DNA of 46,395 nt. Origin: a virus. A program made the translations under genes and the position numbers. This document shows, one piece after another, positions 3,992 to 41,997 of this stretch (the stretch's first letter is position 1; each line of letters opens with the position of its first letter). The stretch spans positions 1-46,395 of IMG/VR virus record IMGVR_UViG_3300031841_003377, one strand, 5' to 3'. Below the pieces are notes generated by a model that saw only the letters and a list, made by a program, of their open reading frames with translations, was not told the DNA's origin and did no database searches.

Positions 3992-5176
3992 TTACGAAGC
4001 TACGATATAAGTTGCATCAGGATTGAAATATGCTTGCGAACCGCCGTTAAGATTATATCCTACTGCTCTAATAACATCACCACTTCCAGATGTAGGAGTG
4101 GATGTTGCTCGACCATCTGTAGTACTTAAATATAAAGTAGAACCTGTAGGAGTAGTAGTAGCTACTATAAGATCACATATTCCTCTAATTAAAAATCCAT
4201 CTGCAGCATTACTAGATACAGCTACCCCTAATAATCCTGATGAAGAAATTTCGAAGTCAGCATCTGTTTTAAACCAGTTACCATCTGCATTGAGTCTATA
4301 AATACTACCCGCAGTTACGGCACTTGTAGCAGTACCATATTTTATTATTTCTCCTTTAGGAGTTGTAGTTGTAACACTTGTAACGTCATTGTATACTAAG
4401 TTTCCGACTGCAGCATCAATTCTAGATGCACTTATACCGGCCGAAGCGGTAATAGGAGTACTAATAGGACTATATATTTCTAAATTGGTATCCGCCCTTA
4501 ATTCGATATTATTATCGGCATGGATTTCAAGATTTTCTGGATTATCAGTATCTGCCATAATATATGTATTAGTAGCATCAGAATCGAATGATATCTTATT
4601 ATTTTGAAAATCAAATGTATGTCCACTTGTACCATCGCCGAACTTTAAAGTACTATGCGAACCATATGGAGTAATATAAGGAGATGTAGCACCAAAGACG
4701 CCTCCAAAAATTCTCACAGTCGCCGAATCATTGTTGGTAGCCGCAATATCAAGTATCGAACTATCAAATTTTAACTTGTTACTACCTTCAATAGTATCAG
4801 CATCCGTAAATACTGCTACTTGATTATCTGCAGGCGTTCCCGAGGTATCTACATACCCTGCTCCTTCAATGGTTGTTATTCTAGAACTAAAACCGCCCGA
4901 AGCTGCTGTAAATGAACCACTTACATCAGATGCAATTTGTGCAGAACTAGAAACCGTGCCCGCTGTAGGCGTCGATGGTACATTTGTCAATGCCGAGCCA
5001 TCGCCTTTAAATGCAGATGCAGTCATTTGGTTAACTGCAAAATTTTGCTTTACTGCCGATCCATCTCCGTAGAAAAAGTTGCCATCAGCAACATTGATTG
5101 CTAATTCACCTTCTGCTAACGAACTAGGGGAGTTGCCGGCAGTTGTACTATGTTTTGTTTTTATCGTTGTAGCCAT
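3992..5176 (-). CDS. Tail fibre protein
   Basis: 394 residues with a classic fibre layout. The N-terminus (MATTIKTKHSTTAGNSPSSL, then EGELAINVADGNFFYGDG) is typical of proteins that cap or attach fibres in T4-type marine phages. The middle is Ser/Thr/Asp/Asn-rich with SSAQIASDVSGSF and LEIHADNNIELRADTNLEI phrases. The last 130 residues form a distinct beta domain (GEIIKYGTATSAVTAGSIY, then TTPTGSTLYLSTTDGRAT) like the small barrel found at the ends of many fibres. The ATG at 5176 is only 6 nt from a late-type element and has no clear ribosome site, which would give a nearly leaderless message if the element is a promoter. Confidence 0.75.
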   Translation of the reverse strand: MATTIKTKHSTTAGNSPSSLAEGELAINVADGNFFYGDGSAVKQNFAVNQMTASAFKGDGSALTNVPSTPTAGTVSSSAQIASDVSGSFTAASGGFSSRITTIEGAGYVDTSGTPADNQVAVFTDADTIEGSNKLKFDSSILDIAATNNDSATVRIFGGVFGATSPYITPYGSHSTLKFGDGTSGHTFDFQNNKISFDSDATNTYIMADTDNPENLEIHADNNIELRADTNLEIYSPISTPITASAGISASRIDAAVGNLVYNDVTSVTTTTPKGEIIKYGTATSAVTAGSIYRLNADGNWFKTDADFEISSSGLLGVAVSSNAADGFLIRGICDLIVATTTPTGSTLYLSTTDGRATSTPTSGSGDVIRAVGYNLNGGSQAYFNPDATYIVAS

Positions 5177-5182
5177 ATCATA

Positions 5183-5191
5183 TATAAATAT
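5183..5191 (-). promoter_or_regulatory. ATATTTATA late-type element before the 394-residue fibre gene
   Basis: Exact nonamer on the coding strand, 6 nt before the ATG at 5176, the closest spacing of the exact copies in this window. No ribosome site lies between. Confidence 0.5.
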
Positions 5192-5195
5192 CTAG

Positions 5196-5723
5196 TTAGA
5201 ATGAACCGCCATTGATTGTAGCAACGAAAGATGCAGTTGCGACTATCATACTCGATGATACCACATTTTCTGCATTCAATTTTATTTTTACTCTTGCATC
5301 CGTATAATATAAATTAGATCCTTCACCTATTTCGTCCGTAGAAAGATTAACGTCGCCCGACGAATCCGGCGCCTCTGAGTTAACTGTTTTTACGAATTCC
5401 GCGGAACTTGATATAACACCTGCAGGAAGTTCTGTTAAAAATGATCCGGTTTGGCCGTTAAACGCTCCTGATATAGCTGTAGCAGTAAATGGCGACGATG
5501 TTAAAAACGAGCTAGTCTGTGCATTGGTTACAAAATTTGCAGAACTGGATAATACGCCGGATGGTAATTCTGTTAAGAATGAACTAGTCTGTGCATTGGT
5601 TATGATGCCAATATCATTACCTAATCCATCTGCAAATGTAACAGGATTCTGTGTAGTATCAGCCTGAACCAAGACCTGGAACGACTGTGAAATAAATTGT
5701 CCTGATAAATCGCCGAAGGGCAT
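5196..5723 (-). CDS. Small tail-fibre protein with internal repeats
   Basis: 175 residues, Ser/Thr/Phe-rich. TNAQTSSFLT occurs twice, and SSFLTELPSGVLSSSA recurs as GSFLTELPAGVISSSA, so the middle of the protein is a degenerate tandem duplication. The C-terminal third contains GEGSNLYYTDARVKIKL, a phrase very common in T4-type fibre shafts, and ends in ATASFVATINGGSF. It starts at 5723 with AAGG upstream, 8 nt after the stop of the preceding gene. A fibre or fibre-chaperone role is inferred from these repeats and from location. Confidence 0.7.
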   Translation of the reverse strand: MPFGDLSGQFISQSFQVLVQADTTQNPVTFADGLGNDIGIITNAQTSSFLTELPSGVLSSSANFVTNAQTSSFLTSSPFTATAISGAFNGQTGSFLTELPAGVISSSAEFVKTVNSEAPDSSGDVNLSTDEIGEGSNLYYTDARVKIKLNAENVVSSSMIVATASFVATINGGSF

Positions 5724-24991: not shown

Positions 24992-27274
24992 TTAAGTAAA
25001 CTTCTGTGTTTTATCTAGGGTAAAGTTAGCCCGACTAAATTCTATACGATCGACAAATTTAACACCATTGCCAATTCTATCGACTGCTACATAGCCTTCG
25101 GGTGCTGTTACTCGTAATCCGCCGCGGCCGTCATCTACAAAATGTTTTGTATTATAAACTGCATTATTGTATTTTTTGACAAAGATAAGTTTAGCTTCTG
25201 ATAATAATTTGGATATAGTAAACAAATTTACAATATCATTTTTACGATCTGCAATTCGCTGCATTTGTTCTATACCGGATTGTGTTGCGCGTGCCTTCCC
25301 CGCATCAGATTTTAGTTTTTCTACTTTCTTATCAATTCGTGTCTGCATCCAGTTTGCGAATTTATCAAACGATAAAGCCGGATTTGATACAAACTCTCCG
25401 GTTTTTATTTCTGAATTAAGATAGATATTCAGTTCGGCACTTGGCAGTTCATCATAATTTATCTTAACAGCATCGGCTTGTTTAATTAATGATTGTACTT
25501 CTTTTGCTTCATTAGCAGTTAATGTCACTACGCCGGTAGTGTCTTTAAAGAATGCATCATCAAACCATACATTTGGATCACGTCTCAATTTAGTTACATC
25601 AGCGCCAAACTGTGCTCCAGATGTTAATGACTGATATGTTGTATGAAATACAATACCAAATTTAGCAGCAGCGACTTTTCGTCCTAATTCAGAATCAGAT
25701 TCCACTGCATATGTTATTGTATTTGGCCTAAATGTCAAATGAGACTTACCGTCAATGTTTTTAGATTTTATCATAGAATCGTCAAACATAAAATCGCCTT
25801 GTAAAATATTTTGAATGCCTAACGGAGGTAAATAATCTAATGCCTTTTTAAGTTTATCTGCTAAGCCTGGTGCCTGTCCGTGATTGATATCTACATCTTC
25901 TTTTGTGTAGTTAATCTTCGGTATTTTATTAAATATAGACTTTGTACCTACAAAGAATTTACCATTATCAGGATTGATGCCAGCGAACAATGCCGGCGCG
26001 CCGTCCCATTTAACTGAGGTATTTACTTTACTGTTTGAATTACCGGCCAGATTTTTTAGTAATTCTACTAGAAATGATCTAGCTTGCTTATATCCGTCCT
26101 CTCCCTGTGTTAATACTAATTCTTCCAAATGCGTCAAATGAGTATTGGCCTTCGCCTCATCTAAAATTTCTTCCGTGATTATCGATAACCAATCAGTAGA
26201 CAACAAACGTTCTTGTACCAAAGGCTCCGGAGTATTTGGTTCCAATTTACTACTATCGATTGAATCAGATGCATCTAAAAAGTTTAAGAATTTATATCCT
26301 ACTTGCTGTGCTACATTGCTTATATACTTACTCCATTCTTTATATGCCTTCGACCCGCGCATTTCTTTAGAGTAATTTGTACCAGCATCTTTCGCCCCAG
26401 CATCACCTACAGGAAAATATGATACCGACATAGGCGGGCCTTTTGGAAATTCTGTATTATGTACTGTTATAGGATCATCTTTAACAATATAATTAAGTAC
26501 TGAGTATCCTAATCGTTTTGCCATTTCATTATTTTTAGCACGATATGTAGCTTGATTACCATAGAAATATCTAGGACCATCATCTACCATACCTAATCCT
26601 AATGGTCCAGTAGAACTGTTCTCTATTAGAAAACGTTCAATGGATTCATTGGCTACTTGCGAAAATTTTTTGCGGAGTAGATTATAGACTTTCGGATTGA
26701 AGAATCCCATAATATTGCGGAAATCATCTTGACTCGCATTTGCCAGTGCCTGACGTAATACTGTGCCGGACATTTCGCCATATCCAGGAACATCAAGAGA
26801 TACGTGAGGTGCCACATATAGGTAGCCATGCTTTGTATATGGCTGTAGATTGTTTTTGTTTTTATCATAGTATTGAAAGTAACTAGGTTCGCCATTCTTT
26901 TTAACTCCTACTCTAAATCTAGGATCTTCTTGCATATCCTTTTTACCAACTGCAAATAATACTGCAGTAGTTTCTGGATCATAGTTGCTAGTTATTTCTA
27001 ACGATTGATATGGATTCTTAACCTGAACTACGTTTGTAATGCCATGTTGAGCCATTACCATTTGTTTTTCTTTAAAGTTCAAAGGCGACTTAGGTAATTT
27101 AACCTTGTCAGATGTTGCAATAAACGTATTTGATTTGCCAAATTTACTTGCAAGTTTTTTGTAGACTGCAGCATGATGTTGACCCATGGGCTGAAATCTG
27201 CCTGGGTAAATCACAATAACATTTTTTATCGTATTTTCAGATAATATCTGTTCCGCTAACCATTCGCCTAACAT
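24992..27274 (-). CDS. Cytidylyltransferase-like / KxDG ligase-like fusion protein
   Basis: 760 residues with two nucleotidyl-transfer signatures. Residues 19-34 (VIVIYPGRFQPMGQHH) look like the first strand and HxGH region of NMN/cytidylyltransferases, but with G-x-H-H instead of H-x-G-H. SGTVLRQAL near 170 resembles the second (ISxTxxR) motif. A middle domain of unknown type follows. At about residue 420 VKWDGAPALFAGI, then FFVGTKSIF and later ILQGDFMFDD, resemble motifs I, Ia and III of covalent nucleotidyltransferases (ligases, capping enzymes). Lys in KWDG would be the adenylated residue. Similar proteins exist in other T4-type marine phages as conserved unknowns. A nucleic-acid or NAD repair role is inferred, not shown. 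Confidence 0.65.
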   Translation of the reverse strand: MLGEWLAEQILSENTIKNVIVIYPGRFQPMGQHHAAVYKKLASKFGKSNTFIATSDKVKLPKSPLNFKEKQMVMAQHGITNVVQVKNPYQSLEITSNYDPETTAVLFAVGKKDMQEDPRFRVGVKKNGEPSYFQYYDKNKNNLQPYTKHGYLYVAPHVSLDVPGYGEMSGTVLRQALANASQDDFRNIMGFFNPKVYNLLRKKFSQVANESIERFLIENSSTGPLGLGMVDDGPRYFYGNQATYRAKNNEMAKRLGYSVLNYIVKDDPITVHNTEFPKGPPMSVSYFPVGDAGAKDAGTNYSKEMRGSKAYKEWSKYISNVAQQVGYKFLNFLDASDSIDSSKLEPNTPEPLVQERLLSTDWLSIITEEILDEAKANTHLTHLEELVLTQGEDGYKQARSFLVELLKNLAGNSNSKVNTSVKWDGAPALFAGINPDNGKFFVGTKSIFNKIPKINYTKEDVDINHGQAPGLADKLKKALDYLPPLGIQNILQGDFMFDDSMIKSKNIDGKSHLTFRPNTITYAVESDSELGRKVAAAKFGIVFHTTYQSLTSGAQFGADVTKLRRDPNVWFDDAFFKDTTGVVTLTANEAKEVQSLIKQADAVKINYDELPSAELNIYLNSEIKTGEFVSNPALSFDKFANWMQTRIDKKVEKLKSDAGKARATQSGIEQMQRIADRKNDIVNLFTISKLLSEAKLIFVKKYNNAVYNTKHFVDDGRGGLRVTAPEGYVAVDRIGNGVKFVDRIEFSRANFTLDKTQKFT

Positions 27275-27296: not shown

Positions 27297-28507
27297 TAGA
27301 ATGTACCACCTTCTATCAATCCAAATGACCCGGTGCCATCCATTTCAATATTGCCTGTACCATACATACTACCGGTCTGCAATGACATGTATGGAAAACT
27401 ATTCGATGATTTTTGAAATTCAAGTTTACTTCTAATACTGTTTGAGAAATCTTTTATTAGAATCGATGCACTCATTTCTTGAAAGAATCCGGAGTCACTG
27501 ACTCCATTATATCTCCAATCAATTATATCAATCGCAGGGTTAGTTGTATCCTTTGCTACTGCTAATACTACTCTACCAGTTGCACCAGAAGTGCCGATAG
27601 ACTCGACATCTGCTCTTATTTTAGCTAATGACCCCGATGTTTCTATATCGTTAAAACTACCAGATTCAATAACAAAATCAATTTCGCCGGCCGAATCGCC
27701 TTGTTGTACTGCATTGTTACCCCGACCTGAACGTAATATTAATTTAGTTCCGTCCGCAGTATTTTCCGTTGTACGTACATCGAAGGGTTGCTTAGGGTCT
27801 GTTGTGCCTATGCCTATACGACCGGACTCTGAAACAAATAACAACTGTCCTTTACTACTAGAAATAGCTAGATCTCGTTTCCTTGTACCTACTAATTCTA
27901 TATTTATACTAGCCTGATCAACATCGGGATGCCCCGGGGCATCGGATTTAGCAGAATGATTGCCAGAGCCAGTAATTGAATGAATTACAAAGCCGTATGA
28001 CGATGTCAATTGAGCATTAAATCTAGCCGGAAGTGTTTTACCCGGCGTTCTACATGTTACAGTAACTGCCGACCCCGTACGTGATATATTAAATGGCGCA
28101 CTGCCTAGTCTAGTTACTTTATCTGACATACTAGCTGATAGCGCAGTAAATGTTGCTAAAGCTACATCGTTAGCCGTATCACCTAGATTGATACTAGCCG
28201 TTACATGCTTACCTCGTAGCGTTCTAATTCTAGTAGGTGTAAATATGCTAGATGATACACTAGGATTTGATCCAGTTGTATATAATACTGCTAAGCGCTG
28301 GCCGTTAGTATCTGAAAATAATAAAAAACTACCACTACTATTAGTAGGTGCTAAATGCCCATCGGTATTGGCAGAACATGTAACTTCGTATGATGATGAA
28401 GAAAATGATTCTGCTATATATGGATTTATAGTAGAACTACCGGAAGGAATAAACTGTATACGTCCTCTGTGTATTATTATTTTATCATTACGTAATTTTG
28501 TCGACAT
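27296..28507 (-). CDS. Tail-fibre protein
   Basis: 403 residues, Ser/Thr/Gly-rich with beta-type segments. GRIGIGTTDPKQPFDVR at about residue 230 is a phrase typical of phage fibre shafts and of chaperone-dependent fibre heads. The C-terminus (SMYGTGNIEMDGTGSFGLIE) is glycine-rich. The N-terminal 100 residues form a separate domain (KIIIHRGRIQFIPSGSSTIN). It begins on the stop codon of the 2382-residue gene (TAATG), so the two are translationally coupled and probably assemble together. No enzymatic motif seen. Confidence 0.7.
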   Translation of the reverse strand: MSTKLRNDKIIIHRGRIQFIPSGSSTINPYIAESFSSSSYEVTCSANTDGHLAPTNSSGSFLLFSDTNGQRLAVLYTTGSNPSVSSSIFTPTRIRTLRGKHVTASINLGDTANDVALATFTALSASMSDKVTRLGSAPFNISRTGSAVTVTCRTPGKTLPARFNAQLTSSYGFVIHSITGSGNHSAKSDAPGHPDVDQASINIELVGTRKRDLAISSSKGQLLFVSESGRIGIGTTDPKQPFDVRTTENTADGTKLILRSGRGNNAVQQGDSAGEIDFVIESGSFNDIETSGSLAKIRADVESIGTSGATGRVVLAVAKDTTNPAIDIIDWRYNGVSDSGFFQEMSASILIKDFSNSIRSKLEFQKSSNSFPYMSLQTGSMYGTGNIEMDGTGSFGLIEGGTF

Positions 28508-31500
28508 TATGGTAATCCACTTTCTCCAGATCCATTTGACATTATTCCAAATTCATTACGTATATTAGGAATTGTAGATCCGGTATAATATGTTACAATT
28601 GCAGAACTATCAAATGTATTAATAATCTTTTGTAATTGCGTTTCGCCGCATGTTAATAAGCTCATATTTGCTAATATAATTGGTTTAGGTGTACTTGACG
28701 GATTTCCTGTGGTACCTAGACTATCGCCAATATCGTCGCGACGAGCTTTACATGATATATTAACAAAATTATCACTGAAATCCATTTCATCACCCTCGAA
28801 TATAGATCTGGCACCGTCAATATCCAGTACCATTATACCAGGTGCATGTACTGGGTATCTCGGTGGATTTGCGCCTAGATTTGCATCAAAACTTGCACCC
28901 GCTACATCGAGGCTGTCTTGTGCAAACTGCCCAACACTAAGTCTAGGCATGAATATACCCGTTTGTGCAAGGCCGGCATCAAAATCACCATTATCATAGA
29001 AGCGCGCGATATCTTCGGCATCAAAATGTTCTAATTCATTATTAGCAACTGATTGAAATTCCCATTTTAATGTTATTGCCGTTGTACTATCTTTAAGTGC
29101 GGCATAATATATAAGTACTATGTATTCATCAGACCCAGGTATAAATGCATTAAATAAAGTAGTTGAATTTTCTGGATGTACAATACTAGAACCTAAAGGC
29201 ATTGTAGCCATTTTTTGAAAACATGAAGTATAAGTGGTATCGTCTCGATAGTTGTCATTTGTAATAGATGGCACCGGTATATCGCCTACGCCGCTTTGTC
29301 CACTATCAGAGCTGTTCGGAAATACGCCGTTCCAAACAGAACCATATATAGTCTGGCCTCGGAAACTATTACCAGAGTCTAATCGAAGATTAGTAGTATC
29401 AACTATTTTGTTACCTTCTAAATCTTGTACTAACAATGCACTAGATGTTACTGCACCCGTATCCGTTACGTTAAATACTCGACCTTCGTCGTCTTCGCCA
29501 AATGAATCATTTCTAGGGCCGGCGCCGATAAGCATTCTATTAGCATTACTAAGTTTAGTAGGACGAAGAAACATAGTTGGATTGCTCGAGCCCGGAAGAG
29601 TTGTTGTCGATCTTAAATCAGTCGTTTCAATGTTCCAGCCGCCGATAGTTCCGCTCTCTGCTTTTAACACACCAGCTTTGGTTACACTAAATGGAGCATC
29701 GGCGAAGGCGCTAGCGCCCATGGAAATGCCGACTGACGGTTGTAGTCGTATTGTATCGGTTCCAGAACCGCCTTGAAGATATGTATTTGCAATACTCCAT
29801 CCGCCTATACTACCGCCGGCAGTAGCGGTTATAACGCCGGTAATAGAAAGATTGCCGGCTTCATCAAATTGCAATTTAGGACTATCACTACCGCCTATTA
29901 CCAATGTACCATTATCTAAATCAAATTTAGATCCTTGCGATGCGCCCCAATTATTAGAACGTATCTTACCAGTAGTTATTCTATCGCCTTCAATAGTAGT
30001 ACTGCGAAGTTGCGCATCAGGACCTACATATACTGCCTCTATATTATCTGGTGTGAGAGCGACGTCCCATATTTTAATATCCGATATTTGACCGTCGAAG
30101 AAGACAGAGCCGCCGTCGGGGTTGCCGCCTATGGTCAGAAACTCTACAGTATCTAGATCTGTATTATCAATAGTCTCTATAGATTGTTCGCCATTAGATG
30201 ATAGTTGTTTCGCATTTACATATAATTTTGGCGTACTGCCATGTTCTAATATTAAAGTATAAAAATTCCATTCATAACGATTGAACCCTGCAATCTCATA
30301 ATCAGTAACGGACTGGCCTGTGCCGCCAGACCTCTGGTGGGTAATCCGTAGATCATTGCCGCCGCTTTCGGCAAAGAAGTTAACGCTAAGAAATGTACTA
30401 TTACTAGCATCTGACCCGATTGTAACTATCGAGCCGCCGGCATTAGTACTGTTATCTAATTTAGCCCAAAATGTAGCTGCCAAATCGGCGCCCGACGTCA
30501 GACTTCCGGAAATGCTGCGGGCTTTTAAAGCGTTTAACGAAGAGTTATTGACATATAAAGCTTTACCTCGAGGTCCGGCGTCACTTCCGGAAACTATAGT
30601 AGTAGGTTCCGTCGCTGAGCCAGATGCATGAGCGCCATTTATAAGATCTGGAGCTACATAGCCGCCGTTGTCAATTTTTTGAAATCCGTCTAATGGATAA
30701 TGAGCTTTTAGATTTGCTGAATTAGGCTGTTCTGGGAACGATGAAACTTCAATTTTTCCTTTAAAGTAACCATTAGTTGTATAGATGCCATACCCAGTAA
30801 CTCCATCACTAAAGTTATTATCAGTTATTCCTGATAGATCACCTACCCTTACAATCGTATTAACAGTTCCAAATACGGAATCTGCATCATCACCGGTATG
30901 CTGTTGACTACCTAAGCCCGTCCCAGATCGTTCGACTATATCTATATACGGTGTATTTGTATCAGTAGGCTGAGCATTTAATAGAATATATCCTGTGCCG
31001 TCACTTCCCTGAGACGCCATAGACTGGCCATCTTTCATTTTAGCAATAAAGAACCCTCGCTCATTACCCTCGACTCGAGCATCTAAGTTGCGTTCAACTG
31101 TTAATGTAGGCTTAACTCTATCAATTGCACCTCCCAATGTTAACAGTGTAGAACCAGTTTGCATTCCATATGAATTGCCATCAGTACCTTGGCCTACTGC
31201 TTGCATATACAATTGATTAACAATACCGGGGGCAGAACCTGTCGTATTCACGAACATATCCTGTACCTCGGCGTTGATTTTAGATTTAATATTGCTAATA
31301 GACTCTGCCTTACTACCGCCGACAGTGAAGTAATATTGATTATTAGCAATTACATCAGCTTGATTAGTTGTAGTACCCGTAAATGTATAAAACTTAGATG
31401 CAGTAACAATTAAATTTGTATTGGCATCAATTGTATGTGAACTAAAATCAAATGTTCCGCTAGCCGGTGTTTCCGACGAACCTAAATCCGTATCGATTAC

Positions 31501-34500
31501 TCTCATATATTCACGGACAAATCCTTCTCTGCCATCTGGGCCTTGGTCTGTTGACTTAGCTACAAGTATTTCTCCATTAACAAACCCGCCGGCGTTATCT
31601 ACTGTCAATGACTGGCTAGCAATCATGCAATGCACGTCACGTATATAAACGGGGTCGGATGTATTTGTCGTTAATCTAAAACGAACTTGATTATACGTCG
31701 AAGGCGACGATGGTATATCAAATATAGCTGTATGAAATTGTGTTCCAGCAGATGTATATGATATCGTTCTTTGGCTGGCATTGACGGTGCCAGGGCCAGT
31801 ATATATAGGTAATACACGATTGATGCTAGCATCAGTGGCAAGGGCTAATCTATATGTTTGAGTTGTAGTAGCAGATCCAGATGAGTACCATGTCAATCGT
31901 AAAGTTTCGCCTTTCAATGAACCAGAATTAAAATCAAATGCCATATCGATTTGAGACGGGTCTTCAATTTTAAAGAAAATGTCGCTATCTAATACATTGT
32001 CAGCAGATATAGTAGTATCTGTACTAAGAACTATAGAAGCCTTATCATCGATTAGCGACGAAACTGGTGGTAAGTTAACAAATTGTATACTACGTGTCGC
32101 CGGTAGTGTTTCGCCACTATAATTTACATCTTCTTCGTACACAGATTTTACAATCGGGTAGTCTTTAAATCGTTCTTCCGGCTTATCAAGTTTAGCTGCA
32201 TTAGCAACCATTACTTGTCCGCCTACTACTGATACAGTATCTTTTTCAAATACTGCAGTAGATAATGTACCTCTAATAACAGCATTTTCAAATTCTGCTC
32301 TTCCGTCAGAACGTATTTGCCATCCAGTCGCATTTGCAGTCAACCCAGATATAAACGGATCGGTTTCAATAGTACCGTTTGAATTGATAACAATGCCTGG
32401 ATTAGCTTGGCTATTAACACCATTGTTAGAAATAATTTTATTTGTATCAAACTTCCATCCGGCGATTCTATTTGAACTGCCTAGCTCAAATATAGTTGCA
32501 CCTGCTTGTTTTGATACAATGCCGAAATTGTCCGAGGCTCTATACTTCATTTCGACAAAATCAGTATCAACATTATCAAATACTTTAAGGCCGGCGCTCG
32601 AACTCAAATGTACATTTGTATTTGCTAACGCCTCTTCGCCAATAGTCCAGCCTGCAATCGATGATACCCCAAATGGATCGAATGTTACTTTATAATTTTG
32701 ATCAGAGCTATTGCCGGCAAATTTTGCTAAACCAGAACTACTTATAAATGCTAAGTTTGCATTAGTAGGTTTAGGATTTGTGCCTCCATCGCTAGATCCT
32801 GCAGGAACAAAAATATCATTTGCTTCTAACGTAGCATTAATTATAGCGTTAGCTCCAATAATTAATCCTCCCGCGCCGTCATTAGCATCTGGATCTAAAT
32901 GAAATATAGACGATGATATTTCGATGTTTTGATTCGCGCCGCTTATAAATTGTGAATCGGTATTACCGATAAAAAACTGTTTAGCTTTTATATCTAGAAT
33001 AGAATCTCGGCCGGCCTGTGCCGTTTGGAAGATTAAATGGGCATCATCGGTATCATCAACTAATTCTAAACCAACGCCGTCATATGGTTGACCAGTAAAG
33101 TAATTGTTTTCACCAGGTAGTACCGAACCACTATATATCATAAATCCGCCAGCGGCGTCTTCACGTTCTGGTACTTTTGATGCCGAATATCCTCTAAAGC
33201 TAATGGCGCGCATGTACGCCGAATTTTCTCCGGCTAATTCAATACCTGCACCGACGGCATTACCGATAGTAACTGAACCGGTTATTAAATTATTCGTACC
33301 GTTTATATATTGATTTTCGCCAGTAAATATAGCACCGTATGCTACAGGTGATAAGTCAGCTAAATTACCACGATAATCAAATAATTGAAATTTGAATGTT
33401 AGAGGCGTATTAAGATGTGTCGACGGAATACGTTTTCCTACGCGTACAAAATTAGGAGAAAATCCAGTTTCAACATGAGAAACTAATTCTAACTGCCCTA
33501 TAGTCCATTCGCCGGATCTAATTACAAAATTTATATTAGCTTTTTCAATCGTAGCATCGGGCCTAAATCTAAATTCAAAAATAGTATTATTATCAACAAC
33601 GGCCGGCATCAATACAGTACCAATACGCGTTCCTAAATAATTGTTATCAGCATATATATTCGTATCAAAATTTGTATCTATCGGTGGGCCGTCGTTAGAG
33701 GGCATTGTTCTACGTACACCTGATACCGGCTCTGTCAATGTATTAGTAAATTCTGGATGTAACGTTGCACTTCCTAATGTAATAATATCCGTTACACCGG
33801 TACTCGTAATATTAGAACCAGATACATAAATATCTAGTCTAGGATGTTGAATTCGTATATCTTCCGACGCATCAACCCCTGTTACGGATCCACTATGTAT
33901 ACCTACACGTCCACGAATCTTATATTCCGTATCTTTAAATAGTTTCGGACGATACGTTTTAGCAATCGAAAATACAGATGAATGGCCTTGTTCGTAACTG
34001 AATTGTCCTTCGTATGAATCATTATCATCTGCGTCAATTTGACGTTGTATACGAGCGCCGCCGATAATAACGGTGTCATCATATGATGCTGTTACTCGTT
34101 GTCGATTGGTAGCAGACGCGTCATTATCTTTACCTATATATTCGAATCTCCAGTATTTGTATATTTCTTCTAAATCTTCGAATTGTCCATAGTTTTCATA
34201 TTGCGTACCTACAAGTATATTTGTTTCGAATGAGCCAGTATCAATTAATACTTGCTGCTCTTCTAATATAGTGTCGCCCATATCAACAAAATCACCAAAC
34301 ATGCCAGATGGCTTGTACAATGTTTTAACTTTAAATACATCGCCAGTTTCTGGTTCTATATCCGATAGAATGATATCAGCAAATGATTGAAAATTTTCTG
34401 TTTGTACGACTTCATCAGGCGCTACAAAACTTGAAGTAAAATTATATGTAAGTTCTACTTTCTTTTTTGTTATTGTAGCTTCGCCGGCTGTACCGCTAAA

Positions 34501-35655
34501 CACATCGAATGAAAATGCTATAGCGCCAAATGTATTATATGAATCATTATCAAAACCAGCATATTGAGCAATACGTGCTTTTGTACCACTAATAACATCA
34601 ACAATTGCAAACTTATATGTACCGAATATCGGCCTAGTACCAGATGCATTAAACTGATCTTCTGGATAAAAGGCTGTAGGCTTGTTTTTACCTTGAGGTA
34701 GATAATATTCGATGCCGTCTACAGTTATTCCCTTAACATTAAACGCACCTTCAATATTTACACGCGGATTGACTATGGTCACTACGCCCCCAATCATTCC
34801 GGCAGTAAATCTAAAGTCGTTCGCAGAATTGACCTCTATAATATTATTACCTGACAAAGTGTATAGAGGCGGTGCATCAGTTGTTTCATTCCCAGTAGCT
34901 GTTAATGAATCGTCTGTCTCGGTTATGTCATAAAACTGATCGCCGGCAATAGGTGCTGGTGAGCGTGCAGAATTGCCACCTGCTAAGCTAACCGGATCAA
35001 AGGTTGGAGCAGCCGGAAATGTAATAGGATTTTCTAAAATTTGTGCGCCAAATGAATCTACACTTCCTCCGGTAAATGAGCTCGAAACTCTTGTAAGTAC
35101 ACCATCAATAGTAACGGGTTGAAAGTATGGTTGAACAACTTCTGAAAGTGTTATCTTCGGTGTTTTCGTAATAATAATTTCTGTATCATTACGAGCCGAT
35201 GGCGCAACTCCGACACTAGTAGACCATAATACGTTAGGATATTCAAAATAATCATTATCTTGAAAATCTCTACTAAATGGAATAGGCTGACCGGTCGCTG
35301 GGTTGAATGATGCTCTAGATGCTAGATAAATTGTACATGGCCCAGGGGCTGTATCAGGATTTATATAAACTGCGGTTACACGTGTTCCATCCTTTTCGAT
35401 ATATCGAAGTGGTTTGTAAAAAATCGGATTACCGGTAGAATCTAATATTTCTACATATATAGGACTTTTCGAAACAAGATTACTAGGATGGGCTTTAATC
35501 TTAAAAAGATTCTTGCCGGCAGTAAATACGGTAGGCATTTCGACAATGCCAAAGAAGTCACGTGATGTACGATCTGTATCTCGAATATCGTACTGTCTAT
35601 CTTTTAGACCTATATACTCTACCTTTGTCGGTAACCTTCCTTCATATCTCGGCAT
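28507..35655 (-). CDS. Giant tail/baseplate protein with LamG-like domain
   Basis: 2382 residues, the largest gene here. The first 150 residues (MPRYEGRLPTKVEYIGLKDR) look like an attachment domain. A long beta-rich body follows. Around residues 1000-1115 and again 1950-2010 there are IAGW/IGGW phrases (SIAGWTIG, RIAGWKFD, SIGGWSIA, TIGGWNIE), a pattern common in tail-tip and host-contact proteins. At about 1648-1878 lies a LamG/concanavalin-type domain (LKAHYPLDGF ... ISDIKIWDVALTPDNIEAVY), likely glycan-binding. The C-terminal 250 residues form another domain. It opens with AAAGGG and a late-type element 14 nt upstream. It is probably a long side fibre or baseplate-attached adhesin; exact T4 equivalence cannot be stated. 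Confidence 0.8.
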   Translation of the reverse strand: MPRYEGRLPTKVEYIGLKDRQYDIRDTDRTSRDFFGIVEMPTVFTAGKNLFKIKAHPSNLVSKSPIYVEILDSTGNPIFYKPLRYIEKDGTRVTAVYINPDTAPGPCTIYLASRASFNPATGQPIPFSRDFQDNDYFEYPNVLWSTSVGVAPSARNDTEIIITKTPKITLSEVVQPYFQPVTIDGVLTRVSSSFTGGSVDSFGAQILENPITFPAAPTFDPVSLAGGNSARSPAPIAGDQFYDITETDDSLTATGNETTDAPPLYTLSGNNIIEVNSANDFRFTAGMIGGVVTIVNPRVNIEGAFNVKGITVDGIEYYLPQGKNKPTAFYPEDQFNASGTRPIFGTYKFAIVDVISGTKARIAQYAGFDNDSYNTFGAIAFSFDVFSGTAGEATITKKKVELTYNFTSSFVAPDEVVQTENFQSFADIILSDIEPETGDVFKVKTLYKPSGMFGDFVDMGDTILEEQQVLIDTGSFETNILVGTQYENYGQFEDLEEIYKYWRFEYIGKDNDASATNRQRVTASYDDTVIIGGARIQRQIDADDNDSYEGQFSYEQGHSSVFSIAKTYRPKLFKDTEYKIRGRVGIHSGSVTGVDASEDIRIQHPRLDIYVSGSNITSTGVTDIITLGSATLHPEFTNTLTEPVSGVRRTMPSNDGPPIDTNFDTNIYADNNYLGTRIGTVLMPAVVDNNTIFEFRFRPDATIEKANINFVIRSGEWTIGQLELVSHVETGFSPNFVRVGKRIPSTHLNTPLTFKFQLFDYRGNLADLSPVAYGAIFTGENQYINGTNNLITGSVTIGNAVGAGIELAGENSAYMRAISFRGYSASKVPEREDAAGGFMIYSGSVLPGENNYFTGQPYDGVGLELVDDTDDAHLIFQTAQAGRDSILDIKAKQFFIGNTDSQFISGANQNIEISSSIFHLDPDANDGAGGLIIGANAIINATLEANDIFVPAGSSDGGTNPKPTNANLAFISSSGLAKFAGNSSDQNYKVTFDPFGVSSIAGWTIGEEALANTNVHLSSSAGLKVFDNVDTDFVEMKYRASDNFGIVSKQAGATIFELGSSNRIAGWKFDTNKIISNNGVNSQANPGIVINSNGTIETDPFISGLTANATGWQIRSDGRAEFENAVIRGTLSTAVFEKDTVSVVGGQVMVANAAKLDKPEERFKDYPIVKSVYEEDVNYSGETLPATRSIQFVNLPPVSSLIDDKASIVLSTDTTISADNVLDSDIFFKIEDPSQIDMAFDFNSGSLKGETLRLTWYSSGSATTTQTYRLALATDASINRVLPIYTGPGTVNASQRTISYTSAGTQFHTAIFDIPSSPSTYNQVRFRLTTNTSDPVYIRDVHCMIASQSLTVDNAGGFVNGEILVAKSTDQGPDGREGFVREYMRVIDTDLGSSETPASGTFDFSSHTIDANTNLIVTASKFYTFTGTTTNQADVIANNQYYFTVGGSKAESISNIKSKINAEVQDMFVNTTGSAPGIVNQLYMQAVGQGTDGNSYGMQTGSTLLTLGGAIDRVKPTLTVERNLDARVEGNERGFFIAKMKDGQSMASQGSDGTGYILLNAQPTDTNTPYIDIVERSGTGLGSQQHTGDDADSVFGTVNTIVRVGDLSGITDNNFSDGVTGYGIYTTNGYFKGKIEVSSFPEQPNSANLKAHYPLDGFQKIDNGGYVAPDLINGAHASGSATEPTTIVSGSDAGPRGKALYVNNSSLNALKARSISGSLTSGADLAATFWAKLDNSTNAGGSIVTIGSDASNSTFLSVNFFAESGGNDLRITHQRSGGTGQSVTDYEIAGFNRYEWNFYTLILEHGSTPKLYVNAKQLSSNGEQSIETIDNTDLDTVEFLTIGGNPDGGSVFFDGQISDIKIWDVALTPDNIEAVYVGPDAQLRSTTIEGDRITTGKIRSNNWGASQGSKFDLDNGTLVIGGSDSPKLQFDEAGNLSITGVITATAGGSIGGWSIANTYLQGGSGTDTIRLQPSVGISMGASAFADAPFSVTKAGVLKAESGTIGGWNIETTDLRSTTTLPGSSNPTMFLRPTKLSNANRMLIGAGPRNDSFGEDDEGRVFNVTDTGAVTSSALLVQDLEGNKIVDTTNLRLDSGNSFRGQTIYGSVWNGVFPNSSDSGQSGVGDIPVPSITNDNYRDDTTYTSCFQKMATMPLGSSIVHPENSTTLFNAFIPGSDEYIVLIYYAALKDSTTAITLKWEFQSVANNELEHFDAEDIARFYDNGDFDAGLAQTGIFMPRLSVGQFAQDSLDVAGASFDANLGANPPRYPVHAPGIMVLDIDGARSIFEGDEMDFSDNFVNISCKARRDDIGDSLGTTGNPSSTPKPIILANMSLLTCGETQLQKIINTFDSSAIVTYYTGSTIPNIRNEFGIMSNGSGESGLP

Positions 35656-35669
35656 TCATTACCCTTTGT

Positions 35670-35678
35670 TATAAATAT
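35670..35678 (-). promoter_or_regulatory. ATATTTATA late-type element before the giant tail gene
   Basis: Exact nonamer followed by ACAAAGGG, overlapping the TGA stop of the recombination gene, 14 nt before the ATG at 35655. It marks the switch from DNA metabolism back to structural genes. Confidence 0.6.
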
Positions 35679-38600
35679 CAAGAGTAGTTTATTTTAGAAT
35701 ATCCGTTAGTCTTTTTGATCTCAATTAATTTATCTACAACATCGCGCATCGCATCTATATGAGAAATGCACAACATGAATTCAAACTGAGATTTAAGATA
35801 ATCAAATAACATGTACATGCTATTCAAGTTATCGGAATCTAAAACGCCAAATCCTTCATCAATTGCTAAGAAGTTCGGACGTGGTAAGCTCGTAACATTA
35901 ATTAGCGATGTTCTAATAGCTAATGATGAAATAAATTTCTCCATACCAGACGTTAATTCCAATGGCCAATAATTATCTTCGTCATATACAATATAACCAT
36001 TAATGTTCTTACCATCAGTTTCTAACAGTACTGTAAAGTCTACTATCTGTGTAAGTATGTTATTAATTTCTGCTTCGATTTGCGGCAATGCTTTTGATAT
36101 CAATTGATATGGCACACCATCACGTTTTACAGCTTTAAGATAATATTCATATCCTTTGTACTGTATTTCTAATTCACGCAATCTTTCAATAGCAGCTAAC
36201 GCCTCTTCTTTTTCTCGCTTTGCAATTTGTAACTTGCCAGAGAAGTGCATAATATTATCATCTAATGAACGAATCTCATCATTAAGACCAGTAATCTCAT
36301 CACGTACTTCAGTTATTTCTTTGTTCTTAGTTTTATTAAACTTAATATCATCTTCATGTTGTATAGCAGCATCTACAAGTTGCATTTGTTGACTAATACC
36401 AGCATCTATTTTCGGAAGTTGATTTTCTCGTATATTTTCTACAAGTTGTTTTTGAGTAAGAACATTTCGTTGCATACTGATATAATCATTTTTACATTGA
36501 TTATATTCTGCTAATTTTTTTGCAGCCGTCGAATTATTAATCGCCGATTCGATATCACTTAGTCTATTTTTAGCTAAAGATAATTCTTCTTTTAATATCG
36601 GTAATTGATTAGTAACGCGCTGAGTATCTTGTAACCATGGATTTGCCATACAATATTCGCAATCTGGGTTCCATCGATGTTTTTCTAATTTAGATAACAT
36701 CTTTTCAGCATGATCTATATCACGTTGTTTAGCGTTTATATTAGATTGTACTTTACCTGCTTCAATCTTAAACTCATTTACACGAGTAACTTCATTTTCT
36801 AGCTTGGTCACATTATATTGTTGTAGCCGATCATGTAAATCCGATTCACGCTGTGTTGCCCCGTCTAACGCATCTCGTTCGTCATTTAATGATAATTGTA
36901 TTTCGTCACGCTTTGCTTCTAACAAATTTAGACGATCCATCAATACATGTTTATCTTCATGTACATCAATTTGACGCAGTTCTTTTGTCAATTCTACAAT
37001 AATGTCATTTAGTCCATCTCGAATCGATTCGTGTTCTCGCTTTTCGTTTAACATACGTTCCAACGGAGCTTTTGATTGAGTTATAACGCGTTCGGCTTCT
37101 GCTAATGTTTCACTATGATCAGTACGTTTATATTCTCTAATCAATGCAGACGTATCGCGTATATCCTCGTTAGCAATCTGATATTGACGTTCGAATATAT
37201 CAATATCCAAGAACTGAGATAACAATTCTTTACGTTCGCGTTGTGACTTATCAATAAATCCGGTATTGTTATTTTGTAATGATAATGCAGTCAAAACAAA
37301 ATCATCATAACTGCCTAGATACTGTCGTATAATTTTATTCGTACCGTCACGTTGTTCGCCGTTAAGCATAGTAACATTGCCATTGGCATCTTCATGCCAG
37401 AAATTTACATCAACCTTTACATGGCCTTTATTGTTCTTACGACCTACACGTTCAATGAAATAATTCTTACCATCTAAATCAAAATGAAACTTACATATGA
37501 ATGATGATTTCTTATTATTGAGTACATTAACAGCTTTATGTGCACGACTACATTTATCAAAACAACAGAATGATAATGCATCTAACAATGTCGACTTACC
37601 ACTAGCATTTGGAGCAAAGAGACCATATGTGCCAGATACATTTGAGAAGTCTACAGTATTACCTTCGCCGTATGAGAACATGTTACTAAACTCAAAATAT
37701 TTAGGAGTCCAAATGACATTTCTTGTTAGTTCTGAATCAGGTAACTTTGAATGAACTGTACGATTGATATGTCGTACGCAGTCTAACATTTCTTCATCTA
37801 ATGCATGTTCATCAGATAAATATTCTGTTATTGCATTGTTCTGCCACTCTACTTCTCTAACGTCGCCAAATGATATTTTTTGATGCTGTATATTCGTGTT
37901 AAGTGCATTTAGCTTCTGAATAGAAATTTCTTGCACTTTATACTGTTGTTTTATCTTCGAAACAATTTCTTTGATATCAGCCGTGCTAGTATCTTTGATC
38001 TTAAGACGTAATCTTGGCTTTGGCGGAACCTTATCCGATGGATTGATTATTACGCCATTATCAACTTCAAACGTATAATATCCAAAATCATTTTCTATTT
38101 CAACAAATTCACAACTCTTAGATTCGATATCCCAGACCATGATACCATGGCCCAATGCTTCGCCGTGATTTTGTTGTACCAATGATCCGGCATATGCAAT
38201 TGTCTTATTCTCGTTTAAGAACTGAGGCTTATGAATATCACCGAGTAGAACGAGATCGTGTCCTGCAAACAATTCTGTAGTGACATGAGTGTTGCTGAGT
38301 GTAAATCCGGCATCCGTCGAAGCCATATTAACAGCGCCATGATGTAATGCAATCTTATAATCGCCTTCGAAATCAGATGCTTTAATGAAATCTACAGGCT
38401 TATCAAACACGGACATTACGTTAAAGTGTATGCCCGATATCAAATATATATCTGTGTCTTTGAGATAATGTAGATTTGGGTGATTCAAGGCTTTAACGAT
38501 TGGAGACAGGGCATCTAAACGACTAGAGTTATTTAGATTACAATCATGATTGCCTGTAATTAATAATACTGGTGCAATATCTGCTAATCGTTTAAAGAAT

Positions 38601-38824
38601 GTCGATACCTGATATACTAGTTCAGGTGACATGTCTGTCTTAGCATGTACGATATCTCCTGCTAGATAAATAACAGAATTAGGAGTATGAGTCTTACGAA
38701 TGTAAGTATACAATTTTTTGAATACTTGTTCATACTCTTTATGACGTTTGACATTACGTACATGCACATCTGCGATGTGATATATCTTATCAATACGATC
38801 TAAGCCAATGTTTATAGTGCGCAT
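35678..38824 (-). CDS. gp47/gp46: Mre11-Rad50-type fusion (gp47 + gp46 in one chain)
   Basis: 1048 residues in a single open frame. Residues 1-345 are a metallophosphatase like T4 gp47: DVH at 19-21, GD at 56-57, GNHD at 91-94, later LHHG and LLGDIHKPQ. From about 375 the protein is an SMC-type ATPase like gp46: Walker A APNASGKST near 405, a long coiled coil, a zinc-hook CEYC near 720, a signature-like LTSGMEKF near 960, and Walker B FLAIDEGFGVLD near 990. In T4 these are two adjacent genes encoding the subunits of the exonuclease that resects DNA for recombination-dependent replication. Here the two activities are covalently joined. The gene overlaps the primase end by 13 nt. Confidence 0.93.
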   Translation of the reverse strand: MRTINIGLDRIDKIYHIADVHVRNVKRHKEYEQVFKKLYTYIRKTHTPNSVIYLAGDIVHAKTDMSPELVYQVSTFFKRLADIAPVLLITGNHDCNLNNSSRLDALSPIVKALNHPNLHYLKDTDIYLISGIHFNVMSVFDKPVDFIKASDFEGDYKIALHHGAVNMASTDAGFTLSNTHVTTELFAGHDLVLLGDIHKPQFLNENKTIAYAGSLVQQNHGEALGHGIMVWDIESKSCEFVEIENDFGYYTFEVDNGVIINPSDKVPPKPRLRLKIKDTSTADIKEIVSKIKQQYKVQEISIQKLNALNTNIQHQKISFGDVREVEWQNNAITEYLSDEHALDEEMLDCVRHINRTVHSKLPDSELTRNVIWTPKYFEFSNMFSYGEGNTVDFSNVSGTYGLFAPNASGKSTLLDALSFCCFDKCSRAHKAVNVLNNKKSSFICKFHFDLDGKNYFIERVGRKNNKGHVKVDVNFWHEDANGNVTMLNGEQRDGTNKIIRQYLGSYDDFVLTALSLQNNNTGFIDKSQRERKELLSQFLDIDIFERQYQIANEDIRDTSALIREYKRTDHSETLAEAERVITQSKAPLERMLNEKREHESIRDGLNDIIVELTKELRQIDVHEDKHVLMDRLNLLEAKRDEIQLSLNDERDALDGATQRESDLHDRLQQYNVTKLENEVTRVNEFKIEAGKVQSNINAKQRDIDHAEKMLSKLEKHRWNPDCEYCMANPWLQDTQRVTNQLPILKEELSLAKNRLSDIESAINNSTAAKKLAEYNQCKNDYISMQRNVLTQKQLVENIRENQLPKIDAGISQQMQLVDAAIQHEDDIKFNKTKNKEITEVRDEITGLNDEIRSLDDNIMHFSGKLQIAKREKEEALAAIERLRELEIQYKGYEYYLKAVKRDGVPYQLISKALPQIEAEINNILTQIVDFTVLLETDGKNINGYIVYDEDNYWPLELTSGMEKFISSLAIRTSLINVTSLPRPNFLAIDEGFGVLDSDNLNSMYMLFDYLKSQFEFMLCISHIDAMRDVVDKLIEIKKTNGYSKINYS

Positions 38825-39738
38825 AGAATCTTCTCTTGCAATAGACGATCAGGACTAAGTTGTTCCGTTTCATCTATCAATGTTCTCATTTTCTCAAATC
38901 CTAAATCACTAGGATCTTTGCTAGTCAGGTCAACAAAGTATACGTTTATACCGTTACCTATAAAATATTCTGCTACCTCCAATGCTTGTTTTCTAGCATC
39001 TTCATCTAGACAGATGTATATATCTTTCACGCCGTTCTCTACAATACGACGTTTCAATGTATTTGAAATAGTCTTACCAAATAATGGAATTGCATTACGT
39101 TTAATTGCAATTGCATCAAATGCACCCTCTACAAGTACAATTGGCATATCCCAGTTGATATGCAACTCAAACCCTACAACATCTTTCGATGTAGGCGGAT
39201 TCTTATGTTTGTACTTATCATCCTCATAATATGCTCTAGATACAAAATAGTTTAAGCTACCATTGCCGTCATAACTCGGAATAACAATCTTACCATGGTA
39301 AGGCCCTTTATCACAGTATCCAATTCTATACTTGAATATATCAGATAATGTCACGCCACGTCTAAACAAATACGCAATTGCATTTCGAAACTCTGGCGCA
39401 GCTTTGTTTAGTATCCATAATGGATTGAACCCTTCGGGCAGTTGTAGGACTTCGGTGTTAGTTGTAGTTTTTGTAGGTTTATATTCAACATCATCGAGTA
39501 ATCCTACTAACTTAGCAATCTTATCTCTCTGAACATTTAACTTGCGAAATAAGATAGGTAACTTACGTCCTCGAGCATTACATACCCAACAATGCCAATA
39601 TTGAGAAACAATGTTAACTTCGAGTTTCTTCTTATGGTGATTACAGAACGGGCAATGGAAAGCTACATCATCACTAGACGTCTGTTTGCCTTTACCTAAG
39701 ACCGATTCTAGTAATGTAACGATGGCGTAACGACTCAT
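38812..39738 (-). CDS. gp61: DNA primase, gp61-type
   Basis: 308 residues. The zinc ribbon is CPFC at 29-32 paired with CWVC at 50-53. A Toprim domain follows with the conserved PIVLVEGAFDAIAIKRN (Glu) and YICLDEDARKQA (Asp-x-Asp), then VYFVDLTSKDPSDLG. It makes RNA primers for lagging-strand synthesis with a gp41-type helicase that is not in this window. The preceding 115-nt gap is AT-rich and lacks the late-type element, so this gene and the downstream recombination gene probably use an early or middle promoter. Its end overlaps the fusion gene. Confidence 0.92.
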   Translation of the reverse strand: MSRYAIVTLLESVLGKGKQTSSDDVAFHCPFCNHHKKKLEVNIVSQYWHCWVCNARGRKLPILFRKLNVQRDKIAKLVGLLDDVEYKPTKTTTNTEVLQLPEGFNPLWILNKAAPEFRNAIAYLFRRGVTLSDIFKYRIGYCDKGPYHGKIVIPSYDGNGSLNYFVSRAYYEDDKYKHKNPPTSKDVVGFELHINWDMPIVLVEGAFDAIAIKRNAIPLFGKTISNTLKRRIVENGVKDIYICLDEDARKQALEVAEYFIGNGINVYFVDLTSKDPSDLGFEKMRTLIDETEQLSPDRLLQEKILCAL

Positions 39739-39853: not shown

Positions 39854-40261
39854 TCAAGTTTTGTACCAACTTTCTGGCACTTCCTTCGACGCCCACTGGA
39901 TGCCATGCTTATCACAAAAATCGGCATATGTTGTTTTAGACCCTTTTCGTATTTTGTTATTAGGCGACTGAAAAACAATTCGTATATCTAATTCAGGATG
40001 TTGTTTGCGTACTAACAAATGCTTTTTACGATCTTCTAACGTCCATCTACCTTTTGCTTCAATAAGTATACCATTCGGTAGTCTAAAATCAATTGTATAC
40101 TTATGTGTAGTCGCTGGTTTGATATATGGTATTACAGTATCTTCATATCCAAATGATACATTTGCTTCATTTAGTTTTTCGGAAACTTTTAATTCGAACC
40201 CGCTTCTATAACCTTTTTTTTGTGCGTTCCTGCGCACCTTGGATTTTGATCTCCAACCCAT
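39854..40261 (-). CDS. T7-type endonuclease I (Holliday junction resolvase)
   Basis: 135 residues aligning over nearly the full length with T7 gp3. GYRSGFELKVSEKL contains Glu23. HKYTIDFRLPNGILIEAKG holds Asp58, Glu68 and Lys70. These correspond to the catalytic Glu20, Asp55, Glu65 and Lys67 of T7 endonuclease I with a constant offset of three. DRKKHLLVRKQHPELDIRIV and TTYADFCDKHGI are almost identical to T7. It resolves branched DNA before packaging. T4-type phages normally use endonuclease VII (gp49) for this. It has its own late-type element and AAAAGGA, matching the late need for debranching. Confidence 0.95.
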   Translation of the reverse strand: MGWRSKSKVRRNAQKKGYRSGFELKVSEKLNEANVSFGYEDTVIPYIKPATTHKYTIDFRLPNGILIEAKGRWTLEDRKKHLLVRKQHPELDIRIVFQSPNNKIRKGSKTTYADFCDKHGIQWASKEVPESWYKT

Positions 40262-40276
40262 AACTTATTCCTTTTG

Positions 40277-40285
40277 TATAAATAT
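40277..40285 (-). promoter_or_regulatory. ATATTTATA late-type element before endonuclease I
   Basis: Exact nonamer followed by CAAAAGGA, overlapping the TAA stop of the upstream tail gene, 15 nt before the ATG at 40261. Confidence 0.55.
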
Positions 40286-41997
40286 TAGTAGTCCCAACGG
40301 ATGATGAAATTCATATCAACATCATCTCTTTTTTGTACTGGCTGTGCAAATTTACCAACAGCTAACAATTGATTTTGATCATTATATAGTCCGATGGTAG
40401 ATATATATGGAAATGCTGTGCCATCCGTAAAAATAGTTTTACGTAACTCGCCCGGAGGTCTATTACTTTGGCCAGTAGCACATAATTCTGTTTCGCCCGC
40501 GGGCGGTCTATATGTAGCTGATGGATTCATTGAAACATTCATCGAATCGGCCGGGACTCGTACCATTACTTCATTTTCATATATTGTATGCTGACCTTTG
40601 TATGATACGTCAAATGTATTCTGAAAAAACCCAGAACCAGTATATTTGTTTAGTGGTGATGATACTACAATTTGTCCATTACGATAAAATACATTACCAG
40701 CTACATTAGTTTGATATAATTTAGGATTTGTAGCATCATCATCTGCCAATGTAGCTAATTGTGCTGCAGATGCACTAACATCATATAAACGAAATTCAGC
40801 TAATTCGTGTCCCGATGCCGCAGCATTTTGTGATGATAAATCTATAGTACCAAATAATACATCTGCATCATTTATTGTCGTATTTGCAGGCATTGTTGCA
40901 GATTGTGCAAGTGTGCCATCTATATACATAGATACTGTTTGAGTACTGCCATTATTAATTACGGCTACATGATACCAGTTATTTTCATCTAAACCACTTT
41001 TTTGTAATGTACGTTGTGTCGTGCCATCTGATAATCTAAAATTAATAATACATGTTGATTCTTGATGTTCAATAAAACATTCAAAAGGTCGCCTATAATT
41101 AGCATATGAACTATCAGCTAAATCAGATGCTAAATTCGTAATAATATTATCAGATGTAATAATTTTACTATTACGTCTATCCAATCGTTGTTCGGGTTTT
41201 ACTGCAAATTTTGATACTATACTATGCTTACCAGCACCAACGTCCGGAGCATAAACCCAAAAAGATAATGTCCAATCATCACATGCATTCATCCTATTGA
41301 ATATATCATTATGAGGTATTCTGATAGAACTAGTACTTGGCGACATAAATCGTGCAGCTAATCCACCTGACGGCCCATCTTCTAATGCAATTGCAGTTAA
41401 TTTAACATCTTCATCATGATGCTGCAATTCATATTTAATTATACCATCTGCGCGGCCTTTTCCAGATTGAGTTAAACGATATGCATTATTGAATGATAAA
41501 TACAATTTCAAGTCATTGTCATTCATCATTGATGACGTATTAATAGCTCCGTCGCGCAGATTACCATTTCCGTCATCTGTTAGTGTGATATAATCCGATG
41601 TAACAGAAACACTTTTAGGTTTAAGACGTTCGCCGACTTGAAAATAAGGTACTGTTAATATCGACGCTGAATAAAACAAACGTTTCTGCGTTTTCATACG
41701 ATTAGTTAATTCGCATGTACGTGCTGGATCATATGGATGCCGATAATACTTATGATCGATCTGTTTCCAAATTACTTGTTGATTTCTATTATCAATCGAA
41801 TTAGATGCATATAAATTATCTGAATCGCCTAAATGAGGCGGCGTGTCCTGGTATATACCATTATACGCAAAATATCCAGACTGACTAGCAACAGCTGGTG
41901 TTGTATTATTTAGCGTATAATTTTTATATGCTTTGAACGGACGAAATTGAACATCATTCGGCCGAATCGATCTAAAAACGGAAGGTATCGTCGGCAT
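40285..41997 (-). CDS. LamG-like tail protein
   Basis: 570 residues. At about 162-405 lies a LamG/concanavalin-type jelly roll (LKLYLSFNNAYRL ... DDWTLSFWVYAPD ... NNWYHVAVINNGS ... HELAEFRLYDVSAS). It is probably glycan-binding or structural. The last 40 residues, YISTIGLYNDQNQLLAVGKF, then AQPVQKRDDVDMNF and a final IIRWDY, match the end of the 404-residue protein encoded just upstream, so the two share a C-terminal module. AGGACGG precedes the ATG, 12 nt after that gene. It is likely a baseplate or tail-attached protein in a set with the 224- and 404-residue genes. Confidence 0.75.
   Translation of the reverse strand: MPTIPSVFRSIRPNDVQFRPFKAYKNYTLNNTTPAVASQSGYFAYNGIYQDTPPHLGDSDNLYASNSIDNRNQQVIWKQIDHKYYRHPYDPARTCELTNRMKTQKRLFYSASILTVPYFQVGERLKPKSVSVTSDYITLTDDGNGNLRDGAINTSSMMNDNDLKLYLSFNNAYRLTQSGKGRADGIIKYELQHHDEDVKLTAIALEDGPSGGLAARFMSPSTSSIRIPHNDIFNRMNACDDWTLSFWVYAPDVGAGKHSIVSKFAVKPEQRLDRRNSKIITSDNIITNLASDLADSSYANYRRPFECFIEHQESTCIINFRLSDGTTQRTLQKSGLDENNWYHVAVINNGSTQTVSMYIDGTLAQSATMPANTTINDADVLFGTIDLSSQNAAASGHELAEFRLYDVSASAAQLATLADDDATNPKLYQTNVAGNVFYRNGQIVVSSPLNKYTGSGFFQNTFDVSYKGQHTIYENEVMVRVPADSMNVSMNPSATYRPPAGETELCATGQSNRPPGELRKTIFTDGTAFPYISTIGLYNDQNQLLAVGKFAQPVQKRDDVDMNFIIRWDY

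Follow-up and report, generated by a model that had tools for sequence, protein, structure and literature searches.

A phage gene encoding Mre11-like nuclease and Rad50-like ATPase as one polypeptide, probably of the R555 type

The window analysed here (the whole stretch of 46,395 nucleotides from IMG/VR record IMGVR_UViG_3300031841_003377), from an aquatic phage, contains a gene in which an Mre11-like nuclease and a Rad50-like ATPase follow one another in one frame. This raises the questions of whether the fusion is genuine and whether its product works like the complexes made of two chains. The gene lies at 35678..38824 on the minus strand, a detail that the earlier note leaves out; it begins with ATG and encodes 1,048 aa with zero internal stops. 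Pfam matched Metallophos (PF00149) at residues 13-200 (7e-11) and AAA_23 at residues 380-589 (8e-8), and PHROG 77, "SbcC-like", matched residues 281-1047 (3e-50). The single-polypeptide fusion described in the earlier note is full-length and genuine, one frame of 1,048 codons carrying both domains, and the fixed 1:1 ratio of nuclease and ATPase proposed there is encoded by this single frame. The product is very probably the phage's own Mre11-Rad50 (SbcCD) complex made as one chain of the R555 type, which would carry out standard M2R2 resection feeding RecA. The features of the gene and its upstream neighbours, all on the minus strand, are as follows.

39854..40261, minus strand: phage endonuclease I, T7 gp3-type Holliday junction resolvase (PF05367, 1e-52)
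38812..39738, minus strand: DnaG-type primase, directly upstream of the fusion gene and overlapping it by 13 bp (PHROG 47, 8e-41)
35678..38824, minus strand: Mre11/Rad50 (SbcDC) fusion gene, 1,048 aa (frame, Pfam, PHROG, motifs, model, Foldseek)
38090..38824, minus strand: Mre11-type calcineurin-like nuclease domain, residues 1-245, boundary approximate (Metallophos PF00149, model, Foldseek)
38237..38239, minus strand: codon 196 (Asp), equivalent of the metal ligand His206 of P. furiosus Mre11, giving GD-x-H rather than GH-x-H (alignment)
37871..38089, minus strand: capping domain, residues 246-318, approximate (order of secondary structure in the model)
37748..37852, minus strand: Rad50-binding helix-loop-helix (HLH), helices 325-340 and 344-359 (model, family alignment)
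37715..37747, minus strand: fusion linker, residues 360-370 (coil between the HLH and the first Rad50 strand in the model; near-constant length)
37199..37714, minus strand: Rad50 ATPase N-lobe, residues 371-542, with Walker A 403-411 and Q517 (AAA_23, motif alignment, model)
36128..37198, minus strand: coiled coil, residues 543-899, turning at the zinc hook (model helices)
36650..36661, minus strand: zinc hook CEYC, residues 722-725 (all 122 members covering the hook have both Cys)
35681..36127, minus strand: Rad50 ATPase C-lobe, residues 900-1048, with SGME 959-962, Walker B DE 989-990, D-loop, and switch His (Pfam, motif alignments)

The earlier note had placed all nuclease and ATPase motifs in order within this frame. 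Every motif that it named was present, but the last nuclease motif, motif V, is not canonical. The nuclease half carries D19-V-H21, G56-D57, G91-N-H-D94, H162, and G195-D196-I-H198, and the canonical five-motif Mre11 (SbcD) ligand set was found everywhere except at motif V, where the first His of the canonical GH-x-H is Asp, giving GDIH. In the ATPase half, the entire Rad50/SbcC feature set was found: Walker A (G409-K410), Q-loop (Q517), a coiled coil with a CxxC hook (C722-x-x-C725), signature (S959-G-M-E962), Walker B (D989-E990), D-loop (D996), and switch His (H1022). The nuclease half is a divergent rather than a canonical Mre11 homologue, and its fold and homology are clear.

Catalysis may differ from that of canonical enzymes because of Asp196, the SGME signature, and, in one subclade, a Gln in motif I. 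As a rival reading, the His206-to-Asp replacement could have abolished or altered cutting by the nuclease half, the protein then acting mainly as an ATP-driven DNA tether or as a nuclease that prefers another metal or substrate. An Asp occupies this metal-ligand position in 129/129 aligned family members, and GD-x-H is also present in the deeper fused relatives L055, L061, PTm1, pT24, and phiXF1; Mimivirus R555 has the same change (PMC3175470). All 10 split homologues sampled, as well as the XacN1 fusion, have the His of GH-x-H. Tenacibaculum phages PTm1 and pT24 and 24 of 128 family members carry Gln in place of the motif I His (D-x-Q); the 24 loci with this change at the motif I metal-ligand position are L022-L025, L028-L037, L043, L045-L047, L049, L051, L052, L054, L056, and L079. 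The ABC signature reads SGME in all 120 members covering it, slightly off the S-x-G-E of most split phage proteins. Set against a dead nuclease, D19, D57, N92, H93, H162, and H198, which such an enzyme would not need, are invariant in the family alignment, and Asp is able to bind Mn2+. H60 and D196 are likewise invariant wherever they are covered by family members. Since essentially one lineage is involved, the association of the fusion with the His-to-Asp change reads, from the alignments, as shared inheritance only and is no proof of a functional connection. On balance, we consider a lost or altered cutting chemistry improbable.

The surroundings of the gene were compared in the window and its relatives. 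A primase was directly upstream of the fusion gene in all 129 related loci with enough flanking sequence, and an endonuclease I relative was present in 97 of 129 related loci, within the sequence available. Elsewhere, the window carries structural and packaging genes of a tailed phage, those for terminase, portal, protease, the major head protein, holin, and PhoH. All nine relatives of 100 kb or longer encode a RecA-family recombinase, and two shorter fragments gave no match to one; no recA gene was recognised in the 46-kb window fragment, and the evidence for RecA comes from the relatives. In one of these, G006 (the contig of L044), the recA match at 85627-87921 is broken into two pieces, each in its own open frame and approximately 1.5 kb from the other, which suggests an intron or other insertion. 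In each of the nine large relatives, the fusion was the sole full-length match of the Rad50 type; Microcystis phage Mel-JY01 had two additional weak, partial matches, and three of the nine encoded small separate phosphoesterases without a Rad50 partner. Other genes of the window, all on the minus strand, include one directly downstream of the fusion gene (28507-35655), whose 2,382-aa product has a concanavalin/laminin-G domain but matches no PHROG, and one upstream (40285-41997) for a second laminin-G protein; the two flanking proteins are probably tail fibres or adhesins. A further gene (24992-27274) encodes 760 aa with an N-terminal cytidylyltransferase-like region (PHROG 395) and a PHROG 455 domain of unknown function.

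By analogy with T4 gp46/47, the most likely role of the fusion protein is DNA-end resection for recombination-dependent replication, for which the T4 proteins have been proposed to supply single-stranded DNA (PMC3016280). The main job could instead be an attack on host DNA or host defence, such as degradation of the host chromosome, and the T4 record does list gp46 and gp47 as required for host-DNA degradation as well as recombination. The fixed linkage to primase, the usual linkage to endonuclease I, and the RecA encoded in the same genomes all point instead to replication and recombination, and we therefore regard host attack as the main job as distinctly unlikely, although the two roles are not mutually exclusive. 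In the resection reading, two chains would be joined at the dimer interface of Mre11, at their Rad50 heads, and at the zinc hook, giving a standard M2R2 machine. ATP binding would close the Rad50 heads so that DNA ends are held, and the nuclease would resect these ends 3'-5' or nick near blocked ends. The 3' single-stranded DNA produced would be handed to the phage RecA, which would use it in repair and in recombination-dependent replication, in the manner of T4 gp46/47 and UvsX. In T4 Mre11-Rad50, ATP hydrolysis is needed for processive excision and not for excision of the first nucleotide (PMC13402864). A literature search found no biochemistry on any member of the window's fusion clade.

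We examined how the two halves are joined using an AlphaFold2 model built from 32 family members (mean pLDDT 83, pTM 0.49); at this pTM, the model does not fix domain placement, that is, whether a nuclease meets the ATPase of its own or of the partner chain. The modelled order is nuclease, capping domain, helices 325-340 and 344-359, a coil at 360-370, and then the Rad50 part, which opens with a strand at 371; a pair of coiled-coil arms, each of approximately 170 residues, join at the CEYC hook (722-725). Foldseek matched the N-terminal part to solved Mre11/SbcD chains (3qg5, 6s6v_B, and 4o43) and the C-terminal part to solved Rad50/SbcC chains (7yzp, 3av0, and 5dny). The best matches in BFVD, a viral fold library, were giant-virus proteins of 969-1389 aa, most of them named DNA repair exonuclease or DNA repair protein; the Tupanvirus homologue was 26% identical in the Foldseek alignment. 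BFVD also gave a full-length fold match to A0A068CB47 of Listeria phage LMTA-57 (1,009 aa); in the Herelleviridae relatives examined, the two genes are separate, so the LMTA-57 protein could represent either another independent fusion or an error in the reading frame.

The capping and HLH regions are kept ahead of the 11-residue linker, the spacing from the HLH to W372 is identical in 131 of 132 members (the remaining member has one residue more), and R368 and W372 are nearly invariant. For the T. maritima complex, 9-12 residues were calculated to be enough to link Mre11 with Rad50 (PMC3175470). Because the HLH is retained and the linker fits this calculated length, ordinary Mre11-Rad50 geometry is, for the modelled protein, a simpler expectation than the altered ATP gating raised in the earlier note, and ATP gating would probably be near that of the two-chain complex. 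With the normal docking element kept and the linker just sufficient, the fusion would most simply fix stoichiometry and assembly; its main benefit would be to secure 1:1 synthesis, assembly, and transfer as a single unit. The linker being a coil in the model, the protein might also be made as a fusion and then used as two chains, through an internal translation start or proteolysis. We found this very improbable: the sole start codons near the junction, 346 and 382, lack a Shine-Dalgarno sequence, and 382 lies beyond the first Rad50 strand; there is no slippery heptamer near the junction; and R368 and W372 of the linker region, being near-invariant, are unlike a disposable cleavage site. An internal start or a frameshift giving two chains was rejected on the same Shine-Dalgarno and slippery-site evidence.

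The continuity of the frame was judged from relatives. A first IMG/VR scan gave 56 loci, with the frame open wherever sequence was available, and a second scan with a family profile gave at least 581 confirmed relatives. The junction was surveyed in 143 loci, eight of them repeats of the same contig, and in 137 a single frame connected nuclease motif V with Walker A. Of the six exceptions, five end at contig edges; in the other, L059, an insertion interrupts the nuclease half, but the junction is still fused. Two separate genes at the fusion locus, which the earlier note had considered fatal to its claim, were found in none of the 143 related loci. Between the window and a near-identical contig (L011, 99% identical protein), codons 319-380 differed at 15 codons and at 0 amino acids (dN 0, dS 0.59), which indicates that the junction is under purifying selection. 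A stop or frameshift near codons 340-380, also raised in the earlier note, was excluded by the junction spacing, kept in 131/132 members, and by dN far below dS. A sequencing error or split gene is ruled out by frame and spacing in relatives and by purifying selection across the junction, and an assembly or sequencing error that merged two neighbouring genes has next to no chance of explaining a frame seen in so many metagenomes, with the other loci truncated or interrupted elsewhere, and again in the sequenced Microcystis phage Mel-JY01 (WWT39521.1).

L059 (LR756508.1) belongs to an uncultured phage of 484 kb, and approximately 1 kb (4607-5670) interrupts its fusion gene right after the motif V sequence GDIHKRQ; the insert contains a cysteine-rich open reading frame (4701-5615) that resembles a homing endonuclease, and a search for a group I intron gave no Rfam match. 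Close relatives on plasmids were not found, the sole match being a weak one to a split Ilyobacter sbcDC pair. Matches in the genome collection were limited to L077, L078, L079, and L080, short contigs in Nitrosopelagicus, bacterium, Gammaproteobacteria, and Pelagibacteraceae bins; these metagenome-assembled bins were rejected as cellular carriers, since the contigs look like phage contamination.

Trees of the nuclease and ATPase halves agreed in uniting the window family, L055, L061, PTm1, and pT24 in one fused clade (99/98 and 100/99 support) and in placing the window family outside the T4 group. phiXF1 is a long branch of unsure position. In both trees, the fusion ORF305 of Xanthomonas phage XacN1 grouped with split T4-type proteins, which means that the fusion arose at least twice among phages. 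A single origin for all phage fusions was rejected for XacN1 (AU p = 0.015, ATPase tree), and zero bootstrap trees, for either half, had one fusion origin.

The earlier note set the fusion against the separate chains of T4 and cellular systems; a premise of separate chains everywhere, or of a fusion unlike anything known, does not hold, since such fusions were published in 2011 (PMC3175470). In that work, Yoshida, Claverie, and Ogata described Mimivirus R555 and twelve other Mre11/Rad50 fusions from a Bacillus phage, bacteria, plasmids, and eukaryotes (PMC3175470). They found R555 relatives to be abundant in aquatic metagenomes, argued that many are phage, and noted primases and T7 gp3-like endonucleases as their scaffold neighbours (PMC3175470). 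Fusions of aquatic and probably phage origin beside primase and endonuclease genes were thus already known; new here are the single fused phage clade with XacN1 separate, the invariant His-to-Asp change, and RecA in the large relatives. In 2011, the family's members from aquatic metagenomes were known as fragments; the present data supply entire genes, their genomic surroundings, and a well-defined clade. Mel-JY01, a sequenced phage with a named host, has a relative of the fusion that is usable for tests. To ask whether nuclease and ATPase act in cis or in trans, a natural Mre11-Rad50 chain of this kind, with its constant linker, is convenient, and the replacement of His by Asp at a metal ligand throughout the lineage is a specific peculiarity open to testing. 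A more far-reaching idea, which we hold to be doubtful, is that the fused GD-x-H proteins of aquatic phages and giant viruses differ biochemically from other Mre11-Rad50 proteins and form a subfamily of their own. Its metal centre and ATP signature would be altered, and its nuclease and ATPase would obligatorily work within the same chain or be swapped between chains, changing how ATP controls cutting.

Among known systems, T4 gp47/gp46 and E. coli SbcD/SbcC share domains, motifs, and the presumed reaction with the window protein but are encoded by two genes and have the canonical GH-x-H; the T4 proteins further differ from this single chain in their S-x-G-E signature and shorter gp46 (560 aa). 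XacN1 ORF305 is also a Mre11-Rad50 fusion in one frame, but it branches with T4 gp47/gp46, has the canonical GH-x-H, and is an independent fusion. The proteins of Tenacibaculum phages PTm1 (1,318 aa) and pT24 (1,310 aa), named "DNA repair exonuclease / DNA repair", are fused, have GD-x-H at motif V and SGME, and fall in the same clade in both trees; they differ in the D-x-Q of motif I and are approximately 270 aa longer. The Mel-JY01 protein WWT39521.1 is a full-length fusion with 43% identity, a primase upstream, and RecA in the genome, yet is annotated merely as "AAA domain containing protein"; a literature search on Mel-JY01 found nothing. Mimivirus R555, compared through its published description, has 1,351 aa, approximately 300 aa more than the window protein, and has GDxxH in motif II and, in motif V, Asp in place of P. 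furiosus His206 (PMC3175470). The two have in common this motif and replacement, the N-to-C order, the capping domain and HLH, the short linker, and, for the R555 type, scaffolds with primase and T7 gp3-like endonuclease. By its anatomy, the window protein is a phage member of the R555-type fusion family.
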